A DNA stretch of 64,000 bases from Chryseobacterium sp. GTDB lineage: Bacteria > Bacteroidota > Bacteroidia > Flavobacteriales > Weeksellaceae. Location of the stretch: positions 1 to 64,000 of the forward strand of contig JAPUEB010000023.1 in NCBI GenBank assembly GCA_027492795.1, in the 5' to 3' direction. The notes beneath the pieces were generated by a model. That model saw only the letters and a list, made by a program, of their open reading frames with translations, searched no databases and was not told the origin of the DNA. This document shows positions 25,964-40,547 of this stretch, piece by piece; within the stretch, counting starts at the first letter, position 1; the number at the start of each line of letters is the position of its first letter. The position numbers were made by a program, and so were the translations under genes.

Positions 25964-26198
25964 AGATTTAAACCACAAAAGTCACAAAAGATTTTACGTG
26001 AAAATTTGAAGTTTAAATTTATGCTTCAAAATCAGTTCACAAAAGTCTGAAATCAAATAGATTTCATAAATAAATCTTCGATTTTTCTTTGGTGTGCTTA
26101 TAAGACATTATTAATTCCATCTTATTTATCATTACAAATAACTTTTGTGTCTTTTGACTACGTCGAATCTTCGATTTGTGGTTCAAAAAATTAAAAAT

Positions 26199-26810
26199 AT
26201 GTATCAAAATCTAAAAAATTCCATCAAAAAAATTGCGGAACTCAAAGTTTCGGACGAGCGAAAAGAAGTTCTAAAACCTTTGGCAGATTTTATTCAAACC
26301 AAATTAGACAACAATGAAAACATCAATCTGAATTTCATTTGCACGCATAATTCTCGGCGCAGTCATCTCTCGCAGATTTGGGCGCAAACTATGGCAGAAT
26401 ATTTTGGAATTCGAAATGTGTTTTGTTATTCCGGAGGAACGGAAGCAACTGCAATGTTCCCGAAAGTTGCTGAAACACTTCAAAATCAGGGCTTTGAAAT
26501 TTTAAAACTTTCAGAAACGGAGAATCCGGTTTATGCTGTTAAGTTTTCAGAAAATAATCATCCGATTATTTGTTTTTCAAAGAAATTTGATGATGATTTC
26601 AATCCAAAAAGAGGTTTTGCAGCAATAATGACCTGCGATTCTGCTGATGAAAATTGTCCAATCGTTTTTGGTGCTGAAAAGAGAATTCCCATAAAATTTG
26701 AAGACCCGAAAAAATCCGACGGTACTCCGGAAATGGATGAAACTTATTACAACAGAAGTTTTGAAATTGCCTCGGAAATGTATTTTGTCTTTTCAAAAAT
26801 CAGAAAATAG
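26199..26810 (+). CDS. low-molecular-weight phosphatase-type protein, probable arsenate reductase
   Basis: This 203-aa protein has the CX5R loop of low-molecular-weight tyrosine phosphatases and thioredoxin-linked ArsC enzymes: [10 protein letters not shown], with Cys48 and Arg54. It has a helical N-terminal extension of about 45 residues and a later [19 protein letters not shown] segment whose cysteines could act in resolution. Its place between arsM and the ACR3 pump suggests it reduces arsenate to arsenite. I chose ATG at 26199; the longer frame runs through a repeat. The enzyme class is clear, but arsenate as substrate is inferred from context. Confidence 0.82.
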
Positions 26811-26821
26811 TCGTTAAAATC

Positions 26822-26905
26822 GTCATTGCGCGAAGTGAGGAACGAACGACGAAGCAATCTTTCACTACAGATTGCCGCGCTCCGTTACACTTCGCTCGCA
26901 ATGAC
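26822..26905. repeat. GTCATTGCG inverted-repeat element
   Basis: The arm GTCATTGCGCGAAGTGAGG...GCAATCT is mirrored by AGATTGC...CACTTCGCTCGCAATGAC. It lies between the phosphatase and ACR3 genes. Partial copies (GTCATTGCGAGGAACGAAGC type) lie at 32126-32152 and 43023-43050, and one is in frame inside pdhC at 41465-41492. I know this type of repeat from many bacterial genomes. Confidence 0.85.
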
Positions 26906-26920
26906 ATAAAATCATCAAAA

Positions 26921-27979
26921 ATGTCAGCAAACAACTGCGCTCCACACGAAAGAAAAAAACTTTCATTTCTTGATAAAAACCTTACGCTTTGGATATTTTT
27001 AGCAATGTTCATCGGTGTTGGTATCGGTTATTTCTTTCCGAATTCTTCCAATTTTATCAACCAATTTTCGTACGGAACCACCAATATTCCTTTGGCGATT
27101 GGACTGATTCTGATGATGTATCCGCCCTTTACAAAAGTGCGTTACGAAGAACTTCCCGAAGTTTTTAAAAACACCAAAATTTTAGGAATTTCCTTGCTGA
27201 TGAACTGGATTATAGGTCCGATTTTGATGTTTGCTTTAGCCCTTATTTTTCTGCACGACAAAACGGAATATATGGTTGGTTTGATACTCATCGGTCTTGC
27301 AAGATGTATTGCAATGGTGATTGTTTGGAATGAATTGGCGGAAGGAAACCGAGAATACGCGGCAGGTTTGGTTGCAATGAATTCTATTTTTCAGGTCATT
27401 TTTTACAGTATTTATGCGTATGTTTTCATCACGGTTTTGCCACCGTTGTTTGGAATCAACGCAACTGAAGTGAATATCACGATTGCACAAATCGCTGAAA
27501 GTGTGGCGATTTACTTGGGAATTCCGTTTGTTTTAGGATTTCTTACCAGATATTTTTTAAGAAAAATGAAAGGCGACGATTGGTACAATAATTTTTTCGT
27601 TCCAAAAATTTCGCCACTGACTTTAATAGCGCTGCTTTTTACAATTGTGTTGATGTTCAGTTTGAAAGGCGAAAAGATTATTCAAATTCCTTTTGATGTG
27701 GTGCGAATTGCGATTCCGTTGGTTATTTATTTTGTCCTAATGTTTTTGATAAGTTTCTTTTTGGGCAAAAAAATGGGAGCTGATTATTCCAAAAACGCTG
27801 CGATTTCTTTCACTGCTGCGGGAAATAATTTTGAACTCGCGATTGCCGTGGCAATAGGTGTTTTCGGCATCAATTCAGGACAGGCTTTTGCAGGAGTTAT
27901 CGGACCTTTGGTAGAAGTTCCGGCGTTGATTGCTTTGGTAAATGTGGCGTTTTGGTTGAAGAGGAAGTGGTATTCTTAA
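26921..27979 (+). CDS. acr3: ACR3 family arsenite efflux transporter
   Basis: This 352-aa inner-membrane protein exports arsenite using the proton gradient. It has about ten transmembrane helices, and its length and conserved segments fit ACR3: [19 protein letters not shown], the essential cysteine in [28 protein letters not shown] and [10 protein letters not shown]. It is the last gene of the arsenic operon and is separated from the reductase-like gene by 110 bp that hold a palindromic repeat. It is convergent with the sirtuin gene, 8 bp away. Confidence 0.95.
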
Positions 27980-29385: not shown

Positions 29386-32094
29386 TTAAATGTCCAATTT
29401 TGCATTATTCAACCTCAACGAATTCAAAATTACCGAAACCGAACTGAAACTCATCGCAGCCGCAGCAATCATTGGCGAAAGTAAAATTCCGAAAATCGGG
29501 TAGAGCAAACCTGCCGCAACTGGAATTCCCAAAGTGTTGTAGATGAAGGCAAAAAATAGATTTTCTTTGATGTTTCTCAATAATTTTTCGCTTAAAATTT
29601 TGGCTTTGGCAACACCGAGAATATCGCCTTTCAAGAGCGTAATTCCCGCGCTTTCCATTGCAACCGCAGTTCCGGTTCCCATCGCAATTCCGACGTTGGA
29701 TTGTGCTAAAGCAGGAGCATCGTTAATTCCGTCGCCACACATTGCAACGATTTTTCCTTCGTTTTGAAGTTTTTTGATTTCCTGCATTTTATCTTCGGGA
29801 AGACAGTTGGCAAAATATTTTTTAATTCCAAGTTCGTTCGCGACGGCTTTTGCGGTGTGTTCGTTATCTCCGGTCATCATCACGACTTCAATTCCTTGGT
29901 TTTGTAAAAATTGAATGGCTTTTTTAGAAGTTTCTTTGATTTTATCCGAAAAACTTAGAAATCCTAAAACTTTTCCACCTTTTGCGAGGTAGGAAATCGT
30001 TCTGGCTTTATCTTGATTTTCTACAATTTTTCGTTTTAAATTTTCAGGAATTTCAATGTTGAATTGTTTTAAAAGTGCTTCATTTCCGAGTAGAACTTCT
30101 TCGCCATTAATCGTTCCTTTCACGCCTTTTCCGGAAATGTTTTCAAAATTTTCTACTTTATAGAACGAGTTTTGTACGCTGTCATTGGCTACGCCGAATC
30201 CTTCGGATTTCTGAGCGGAGGAACGTAGCGAAGAATCTTTATTTTGATTAATAGATTCTTCATTCCGCTTCTGAACTTCGTTCGCAGACTTTTCGTCTGT
30301 ATTCAGAATGACAGCGTGTTTGTCATCCTGAGCGAAGTCGAAGGACAAAACTGCTTTTGACAAAGGATGTTCCGAATTTTGATTTAGTGAAGCCGCCAAT
30401 TTTAGAAGTTCATTTGGAGCTTGCGAAGTCTCCTCTCCTTTGGAGAGGAGATTTAGAGGAGAGGATACTTGTATACTTTCTAAACTTGGTTTGCCTTCCG
30501 TTAAAGTTCCGGTTTTATCGGTAATCAGCACATTTACTTTGTGCATTTCTTCTAAGGCTTCTGCATTTTTTATCAGAACGCCATTTTTTGCGCCTTTTCC
30601 GATTCCCACCATCAAACTCATTGGTGTTGCCAAACCTAAAGCACACGGACAAGCGACGATTAGAACTGCAACTGCATTCACAAATGCATAAATCAAGGCA
30701 TTTTCGCCACCGAAAATTCTCCAGAGAATAAAAGTCAAAATAGAAATTGCAATCACCGTCGGAACGAAAATTTTTGAAATTTTATCCGCCAGTTTTTGAA
30801 TTGGGGCTTTGCTTCGGCTTGCATCATTCACCATTTTTATGATTTGTGAAAGCAAAGTTTCATCGCCTACTTTTTCGGCTTTCATCAGGAAAGTTCCGTT
30901 TCCGTTAATCGTTCCTGAAGTAACAATATCCCCGGATTTTTTCTCAACAGGAATAGGTTCACCTGTAATCATACTTTCATCCACTGTTGAATTTCCTTCG
31001 GAAATTTTTCCATCGACTGGAATTTTTTCGCCCGGTTTTACTCTTAAAATATTCCCGAGTTTCACTTCAGAAAGTGGAATTCTTTTTTCCGAATTTTCGG
31101 AAATTAAATTGGCTTCATCTGGCGAAAGATTCATCAATTCTTCAATGGCTTTTCCGGTTTTTTGATGGGCTCTTGCTTCTAACATTTGTCCCATAATTAC
31201 CAAAGTCAAAATCACACAAACCGATTCAAAATAAAGCGGTGCTTTTCCGTCGTGCGACATTTCGTGAGGCAAAATATTTGGAAAAAACAACGCGACTAAA
31301 CTGAAAATAAACGCTGCGGCAGAACCTAATGCAATCAGCGAAAACATATTGAGATTCCAAGTTTTAAAGGAAATCCAACCACGTTTCATTAGAAACCAAC
31401 CGGCATAAAAAATCACAGGAATGGAAAGCAAAAGTTCTAAAATTCCCTGAATTTTGTTGGAAAACGGAAAATTAATCCACATTCCGCCCATCGATAAAAT
31501 GAAAACAGGAATCGTGAAAGCCAGCGCAATCAGGAATTTATTTTTGAGAATTTTGTAAGTATCATCCTCAACTTTTTCGCCTTTTTCTGGAATTTTAACT
31601 AAATCCATTCCACAAACCGGACAACCAACATTGGAATCATACACTTTGTCGCCTTCGCAGAACATGGGGCAGTAAAATTTACCCGCATTATTATCAGTAA
31701 TAGGTGATGAGTGATGAGTAATATTTTTGGATTGCTGATTACTCATTACCGATTGCTCATCAATCATCTGCAGATGCATATGACAAACCGGACAACCGAT
31801 ATCGGAATCGTAGGTTTTATCGCCTTCGCAGAACATCGGACAATAATATTCGCCAATACGAGATTCGAGATTTGAGATTTGAGATTCGAGGGTTTTTTCG
31901 TTTTTTTTGAATCCAGCTTTTTCCTCTATCGGAACGCAATACATATTACAAACGGGGCAGCGTTTTCCCTGAACGAAATACACTTTTTCGCCCTCACATT
32001 CCATCGGACAATAATAGACGGAACTTGGAGATACACGGTCTTTTGGTGGCACTTCGACAGGCTCAGTGTATTTATTTGGATTCTGATTTTCCAT
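29386..32094 (-). CDS. copper-type P-type ATPase with three metal-binding modules and repeat-derived insertions
   Basis: This 902-aa pump of the P1B type moves a soft metal, probably Cu+, out of the cytoplasm. Three heavy-metal-binding modules with the pattern YYCPMxCEGxKxY...CPVCxM lie at about residues 27-57, 82-111 and 135-165. The membrane domain follows, with CPC at 482-484. Phosphorylation Asp526 is in [18 protein letters not shown] is the HP motif of the nucleotide domain, and [14 protein letters not shown] the hinge. No MxCxxC domain is seen. Five stretches (about residues 9-15, 68-78, 109-133, 541-556 and 582-639) are encoded by DNA resembling intergenic repeats and probably lengthen linkers and the nucleotide domain. 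The reading frame is intact throughout. Confidence 0.9.
30180..30350. repeat. in-frame dispersed repeat inside the P-type ATPase gene
   Basis: This stretch contains GTCATCCTGAGCGAAGTCGA, CAGAATGACA and AAGAATCTTT-like units typical of the GTCATTCTGAGCGAAG intergenic repeat (compare 32195-32228 and 35938-35985). It adds about 57 residues ([20 protein letters not shown] onwards) just after the HP motif of the nucleotide-binding domain. Confidence 0.75.
31697..31891. repeat. in-frame heptamer arrays between metal-binding modules of the ATPase
   Basis: At 31861-31891 units GAGATTC and GAGATTT follow in 7-bp steps, like the arrays before arsR and pdhC. At 31697-31765 TGATGAG and TGATTAC, TCATTAC-type units also follow in 7-bp steps. 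They encode the linkers that separate the three CPxC modules. Confidence 0.7.
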
Positions 32095-32125: not shown

Positions 32126-32228
32126 CATTGTGAGGAACGAAGCAATCTAGAGTTGGAACGAATTGCGTTTATAAAAAACACAAAAATGAAAATCTTGACT
32201 GTCATTCTGAGCGAAGTTGAAGAATTCT
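32126..32228. repeat. cluster of partial dispersed repeats upstream of the ATPase gene
   Basis: GTCATTGTGAGGAACGAAGC (32126 onwards) and GTCATTCTGAGCGAAGTTGA (32202 onwards) belong to the two common repeat families of this window. CCACAAAAGGCACAAAAG at 32104 and its mirror near 32280 resemble the ends of the 177-bp element. No gene is seen in 32095-32302. Confidence 0.65.
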
Positions 32229-40461: not shown

Positions 40462-40538
40462 AATTTGAAATTTGAAATTTGAAATTTGAAATTCAACAGA
40501 ATCTCAAATCTCGAATCTCGAATCTCGAATCTCAAATC
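40462..40538. repeat. 7-bp-period array between pdhA and pdhC
   Basis: Four units of GAAATTT/GAAATTC are followed, after a short gap, by TCTCAAA, TCTCGAA (three times) and TCTCAAA, all in strict 7-bp steps. The two halves are roughly complementary and could pair in the mRNA just upstream of the pdhC start. It resembles the array before arsR at 24620-24691. Confidence 0.8.
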
Positions 40539-40547
40539 AATAAATTT

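Follow-up and report, generated by a model that had tools for sequence, protein, structure and literature searches.

The question raised by this locus is how repeats of kinds that lie between genes came to be read in frame within a metal pump. In the window, by which we mean the whole stretch of 64,000 nucleotides analysed, the reverse strand at 29386..32094 carries a gene of 902 aa for a copper P1B-type ATPase whose N-terminus bears three HMBD-like CPM..C motifs, and a first-pass annotation made from the sequence alone had proposed that this gene absorbed at least five such repeats. Two of the segments in question are clean insertions, most of the five are dispersed repeats, the same families sit in other genes and genera, and the catalytic motifs of the pump are intact. 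We consider it probable that the pump is a working-type ATPase whose linkers and two nucleotide-domain loops hold in-frame repeat families, and for one of the segments (segment 4 below) we propose an endonuclease of the DUF559 family as the driver.

The pump gene and its integrity

The Pfam matches of the pump ORF (E1-E2_ATPase 3.6e-60, HAD hydrolase 6.7e-25, HMBD 3.5e-12), together with CPC in the membrane part, the DKTGT, SEHPL and GDGIND motifs and the HAD fold, identify it as a copper P1B-type ATPase. Its core motifs and domain order are those of the CopA/CopB type, from which it differs by the enlargement of two loops of its nucleotide-binding domain and by linkers that derive from repeats. 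A match to the pump was found in 38 of the 40 genomes searched, and among the best 80 of the 229 stretches found related to it in named genomes, the nearest is that of Kaistella antarctica (75%). The pump alignment used below comprises 42 sequences, hand-selected from 110 loci. By eye, a phosphatase/arsenate-reductase-like ORF and an ACR3-type transporter ORF were noticed near the pump (window 26145-27979).

A pump with this many foreign-looking segments might be a decaying pseudogene that tolerates junk, a reading to which the 33 private amino-acid changes of the window lineage, against 12 in K. antarctica, lend some colour, and this excess may reflect branch length or relaxed constraint. Against such decay, the frame is open through all five segments and the motifs are kept; the window pump deviates at 3 of the 333 columns that are invariant in 37 relatives, two of these three lying in a repeat-replaced linker; dN relative to K. 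antarctica (0.14) is far below dS (1.7, saturated; NG86 method); and repeats are found in frame in LeuRS and ClpB of the same genome too. Decay therefore seems to us very unlikely, and judging from its catalytic motifs the gene probably encodes an intact-looking, working-type copper ATPase. The open frame in itself is no sign of function, since copies that break the frame are lost and frame keeping is to be expected among those that remain. An assembly or binning artefact might be suspected in a 2.96-Mb draft genome of 46 contigs, judged here from its assembly and as the one member of its genus in the comparison, but errors would not preserve the frames of many genes, and the same loops are filled in other genomes; we give this suspicion hardly any credence.

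Five segments of repeat type

All five segments are given by their positions on the reverse strand, and their patterns were counted in the window against shuffles and in the genome against the reversed pattern. Five of the six segment patterns exceed the genome control, the exception being GTAATGAGTAATSAGCAAT of segment 3. Segment 1 (32050..32068; CACTGAGCCTGTCGAAGTG, read as TEPVEV) lies in the N-terminus, which varies freely among relatives, and is therefore not assignable as an insertion; its only exact match in the window is its own site (32050-32068; none in shuffles), and with up to 3 mismatches the genome holds 4 matches against 1 for the control, a slight excess, so that its identity as a repeat is weakly supported. 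Segment 2 (31860..31893) consists of tandem AATCTCR 7-mers read as 11 residues, and in the pump alignment it substitutes for the first HMBD linker SKTNLPESFKDK with nearly unchanged length. These 7-mers have 15 overlapping matches in the window (0.03 in shuffles), and in the genome, counted with the pattern AATCTCRAATCTCRAATCTC, 24 overlapping matches (control 0); a further tract of AATCTCR/AATTTCR 7-mers is found on the forward strand at 40467..40540, where it coincides with or immediately precedes the start of an ORF that by eye resembles dihydrolipoamide acyltransferase. Segment 3 (31697..31765), a 7-mer tract with inverted arms read as 22 residues, replaces the second HMBD linker. By eye, the K. 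antarctica pump carries a tract that matches it, and segment 3 thus probably predates the window species.

Segment 4 (30424..30466) is a palindrome of the type we call class B (ATCCTCTCCTCTAAATCTCCTCTCCAAAGGAGAGGAGA.., with 10-bp arms), read as 12 residues, and is a clean insertion of 11 or 12 aa between the DKTGT and SEHP motifs. Its pattern CTCCTCTCCAAAGGAGAGGA has 33 matches in the genome and none for the control, the pump site being counted on both strands. Segment 5 (30180-30342) is a clean insertion of 51 aa made of two units: 5a (30321..30342; TTCGACTTCGCTCAGGATGACA, translated as FDFAQDD), situated in the loop that follows the SEHPL motif, and the adjoining 5b (30180..30313), an imperfect palindrome TGTCATTCTGAA...AATGACA. 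In the genome the 5a pattern has 23 matches (control 0) and GATTCTTCGCTACGTTC, the core of 5b, has 7 (control 1), and an intergenic copy of the 5a repeat with 2 mismatches lies just upstream of the pump gene (32200..32221, reverse strand). Folded as single strands and compared with shuffles, segments 3, 4 and 5b gave z values of -2.7, -3.5 and -3.9, respectively, so that segments 4 and 5b fold more stably than their shuffled counterparts.

The loop between DKTGT and SEHP measures 42 aa in the window pump and 29-32 aa at 96 of 98 relatives' loci (42 aa at the other two), and the loop between SEHP and the GKG motif measures 81 aa against 28-49 aa at the 96 relatives' loci that gave a value; the 98 loci contain at least one genome twice (L009 and L096), and a further 10 loci gave no motif match and one (L105) no ORF. 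The first-pass annotation was thus right that the pump is longer than usual, that its nucleotide domain has a large insert, here absent from the relatives measured, and that repeats of intergenic kinds, matched elsewhere in the genome, are read through an open frame. Its estimate of about 57 residues after the HP motif stands as a clean insertion, measured at 51 aa. Five absorbed repeats, as originally counted, hold as insertions for segments 4 and 5, which relatives lack in the alignment of orthologues that had been suggested as a check; segments 2 and 3 are 7-mer tracts that replace linkers, one of them common to K. antarctica, and segment 1 is an exact 19-mer in a variable N-terminus.

One could ascribe the segments to ordinary linker drift and slippage, their likeness to intergenic repeats being loose. 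This would suit segments 2 and 3, where the replaced linkers are variable among relatives and of similar length, and it would suit the pattern GTAATGAGTAATSAGCAAT of segment 3, whose repeat character holds against window shuffles (2 matches, both within segment 3, against 0.02) and fails against the genome control (8 matches against 9). Segments 4, 5a and 5b, however, match dispersed repeats above control, are clean insertions, and have counterparts in unrelated genes, so that drift is an unlikely account of segments 4 and 5 and an improbable one of the whole.

The AlphaFold model of the pump is poor overall (mean pLDDT 60). Residues 547-558 and 587-642, which correspond to the two clean inserts, have pLDDT below 50, as do other stretches, and the parts of the P- and N-domains beside the inserts are modelled better than the pump average; as expected, the low values would fit disordered loops. 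In comparison with the solved CopA structure there are gaps at both inserts, with query residues 583-644 facing chain residues 471-481. Repeat-derived inserts of this kind mislead alignments as well as structure models.

The pump loop that holds 5a in the window is filled by CTTCGACAAGCTCAGnnTGACA in one of the genomes compared (G003, locus L004) and in Epilithonimonas caeni (L035), and decayed forms of the loop-filling repeat, related by eye to TTCGACTTCGCTCAG, are present in the pumps of L005, L036 and L040. In two further genera, therefore, this loop apparently holds a relative of the TTCGACTTCGCTCAG repeat, the kinship being judged by eye, and the differing flanks suggest that the TTCGACTTCGCTCAG-related repeats may have arrived in pump loops separately. 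At the site of segment 4, the pumps of L005 and L040 have an 11-aa insert NESSEAYLDQREK, for which no repeat match was found.

The same families in other genes of the genome

The TTCGACTTCGCTCAG repeat occurs at 23 places in the source genome, 13 of them intergenic or near ORF ends and 10 within the long ORFs of nine genes: ClpB, PurL (two copies, the second of which, L135, has 3 mismatches), LuxE-like, ABC-F-like, FtsK-like, E2, glycosyltransferase, alpha-2-macroglobulin and the pump, several of these families being assigned below curated cut-offs. The segment-4 pattern also picks out palindromes within LeuRS and within two ORFs of the alpha-2-macroglobulin type; a relative of class A (see below) lies in an M3-peptidase-like ORF. 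Comparison with solved structures revealed 10 extra residues at the repeat in ClpB, 4 in MnmE, and in LeuRS about 200 at an endonuclease insert and 8 at a second copy; CysRS (L195) has 9 extra residues relative to 6UJD, at a copy found with a pattern that is not above its control. The idea that repeats become coding sequence in an essential-type fold, put forward for the pump, is better supported by LeuRS and ClpB of the same genome. Such in-frame repeats should be translated, as far as can be told from their reading frames. In MnmE (L175) we noticed repeats of two types next to each other, close to the position of the NKxD motif, which seems altered.

DUF559 endonuclease genes and their palindromic ends

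The LeuRS gene of the source genome (L214, at about 76.4-80 kb of contig C35 of G000) contains an in-frame DUF559 domain (E 4e-35) between inverted palindromes and, besides this element, a second, plain palindrome insert VPPPSPLERVGERI. A second DUF559 gene of the same genome (L215), which is intergenic, is bracketed by palindromes as well. DUF559 matches are present in 47 of 100 Weeksellaceae genomes, and we examined the 43 strongest of 57 matches (E up to 4.2e-12), setting aside 14 weaker ones; the 43 include the two of the source genome that prompted the idea, and exclude from the counts L216, a weak and partial third match of that genome, and L288. C-first palindromes (arms of at least 6, within 300 bp) lie on both sides of 32 of the 43 domains, on one side of 3 and on neither side of 8; with arms of at least 7 these numbers become 26, 7 and 10. 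Near DUF559 we counted 75 palindromes in 27.5 kb against 9 in the 85 kb further off at the same loci, and the ratio of near to far density is 26-fold for arms of at least 6 and 29-fold for arms of at least 7. As a control, G-first palindromes near DUF559 at the same loci numbered 0. Across the pump loci of relatives (1.11 Mb), C-first palindromes with arms of at least 7 likewise numbered 0; this background is one conserved neighbourhood, mostly from Chryseobacterium, and the within-locus control is therefore the fairer one.

In-frame DUF559 domains were found in LeuRS, MetH, HsdS, a Type ISP enzyme and two HsdR proteins, the MetH case having no palindrome by the counting rule used. Six of the eight loci without C-first palindromes (L217, L218, L219, L221, L223 and L226) have, by eye, another flanking repeat around CCCTAAAGGG or CCCTGAAGGG, their DUF559 genes sitting within arrays of CCCTAAAGGG-type repeats that amount to a third flank class. 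A Pfam scan (E up to 1e-6) detected no Hint splicing domain around DUF559 in MetH, HsdS, the Type ISP enzyme and the two HsdR proteins, and for LeuRS the scan was confined to NCBIfam. Among solved structures the DUF559 domain matches 3HRL (5e-20) and then, weakly, the 'Mobile intron protein' 3R3P (7e-4), which we take to be I-Bth0305I; it is through this weak match, second after 3HRL, that the elements show homology to the EDxHD family.

The ends of the DUF559 elements fall into two main classes, A and B, defined by patterns that were written after the ends were seen. The tree of DUF559 domains, which includes 38 of 42 (L215, L224, L285 and L286 were dropped by the filter), splits with 100/100 support into clade I of 13 members, among them MetH and the six LeuRS rows retained by the filter, and clade II of 25 members, with the restriction-enzyme cases. 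Over 41 loci, with L224 assigned to clade I, and L215 and L285 to clade II, independently of the tree, none of the 15 ends of clade I is of class A, 7 are of class B and 8 of neither, and of the 58 ends of clade II 51 are of class A and none of class B. The end class follows the nuclease clade. By eye, the seven class-B ends belong to L220, L222, L224 and L227, all of them LeuRS elements of other genomes.

Segment 4, the pump copy, belongs to class B. So do 24 of the 30 distinct solo palindromes read at the 30 loci listed for the 33 segment-4-pattern matches; the class-B pattern has a single match in the window, namely the pump, and none in the 1.11 Mb of relatives' pump loci. The elements of the source genome itself lack class-B ends, those of L214 being of the CCCCTTT type (neither class) and those of L215 of class A, and a nuclease with class-B ends is therefore known from other genomes only. 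In its sequence, the segment-4 palindrome apparently corresponds in type to the ends that certain DUF559 elements have in related genomes. The link between DUF559 and the palindromes is an association, and movement by the nuclease is what we infer from it.

Three states of one LeuRS loop

A LeuRS match could be read in 98 of 99 genomes, and the loop was resolved in 96 of these and left unresolved in 2. Seven of the 96 loops contain whole DUF559 elements, 14 have other long forms (more than 34 aa) and 75 are short or empty. By eye, two of the 14 long loops without an element hold solo inserts of the palindrome type (L254 and L274) and at least six hold 7-mer tracts (L252, L255, L258, L268, L272 and L306). 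Whole elements occupy one site of this conserved gene in several genera, and nothing else links the solo forms to the nuclease-bearing ones as well as the states of this loop do. With its empty, solo and whole-element forms, the site offers a natural series in which to study how DNA parasites may turn into protein sequence.

The LeuRS loop before VFTTRPDT also stands out as a hot spot where inserts of various kinds are found (L246-L275 and L289-L352), the tandem 7-mers there including, for example, GTTCCGA and CAACCAA.

A possible route into protein loops

We propose the following explanation. Repeats would insert frequently and at more or less random places, and only those copies that leave the frame open in exposed, disordered loops would survive selection. 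A DUF559 nuclease (EDxHD/Vsr-like), encoded between two palindromes, could cut target loops, and the element could be copied into the cut loop by break repair and then read through without splicing. Were the nuclease gene lost, or only one end copied, a translated palindrome such as that of the pump would remain. For Weeksellaceae in general, we give an even chance to the proposal that mobile DUF559 elements with palindromic ends enter genes in frame and without splicing, including at a fixed LeuRS loop, that they leave behind or seed palindromes that are translated, the pump insert among them, and that nuclease and ends have co-diversified. One class of short palindromes thereby gains a candidate mover, and DUF559, a family of which little is understood, a possible role. 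No mover was found that would account for the TTCGACTTCGCTCAG repeat or the 7-mer tracts; RAYT genes are present in the genome but, at the seven loci scanned, do not adjoin them.

Relation to known in-frame repeats and homing endonucleases

Rickettsia palindromic elements (RPE) are short palindromic repeats of several families that occur in frame in functionally unrelated genes, according to the part of PMC10969869 available to us, which cites Ogata et al. 2000 and 2002. The inserts described here resemble RPE as in-frame palindromic repeats with homology on both sides, which holds for segments 4 and 5, LeuRS and ClpB. They come from a different phylum and are likened to RPE by description rather than by RPE sequences, and for this reason we do not file them as RPE; they differ also in that one repeat family is tied to an endonuclease element, in comparison with RPE as described in the available part of PMC10969869. 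In-frame palindromes are thus already known from Rickettsia, and what is new is a palindrome type that matches the ends of DUF559 elements. In-frame selfish repeats have been described chiefly from Rickettsia, and here several families are found in conserved enzymes of Bacteroidota. Among the papers listed by our literature search, which reached a minority of subscription journals, none described these repeats, the pairing of DUF559 with palindromes, LeuRS inserts or, for Bacteroidota, in-frame palindromes of this sort.

DUF559 has been placed in the EDxHD family (PMC9403480) and the EDxHD homing family is described in a review (PMC3943268), while segments with a transposase and DUF559 are listed among the recombination hot spots of another bacterium (PMC12308824), in each case as far as the available parts of these papers go. 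The elements resemble EDxHD homing endonucleases such as I-Bth0305I in this family placement, in the 3R3P match and in the presence of whole elements at one conserved-gene site. They differ from them in that no intron or intein was seen around the DUF559 element, which looks read through, and in having palindromic ends.

RAYT genes as an alternative mover

The known system for short palindromes is REP/RAYT, in which palindromes flank a gene and are scattered singly through the genome as well, and the class of repeat follows the clade of the enzyme. The DUF559 elements share these features, as their bracketing palindromes are also found solo across the genome and the end class tracks the enzyme clade. 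They differ in the enzyme, a DUF559 endonuclease instead of a Y1 transposase, and in that copies lie in frame inside genes. The resemblance invites the alternative that mobilisation of the RAYT (Y1 transposase)/REP type spreads the repeats and DUF559 is a bystander, the more so as the genome has seven Y1_Tnp matches, six of them over the cut-off. A motif scan of about 1.5 kb on each side, however, detected pump repeat types at just one of these seven loci, and there the repeat lies at least 776 bp past the RAYT ORF, at the LuxE-like gene; at one flank that we read by eye the palindrome is a different one. The pump repeats adjoin none of the seven Y1_Tnp loci scanned, and we have rejected RAYT as their mover, regarding its involvement as a little less probable still than linker drift.

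At L207 (900-2500) the RAYT gene is bracketed by a different repeat, of the GCGGAGCGCC..GGCGCGACC type.
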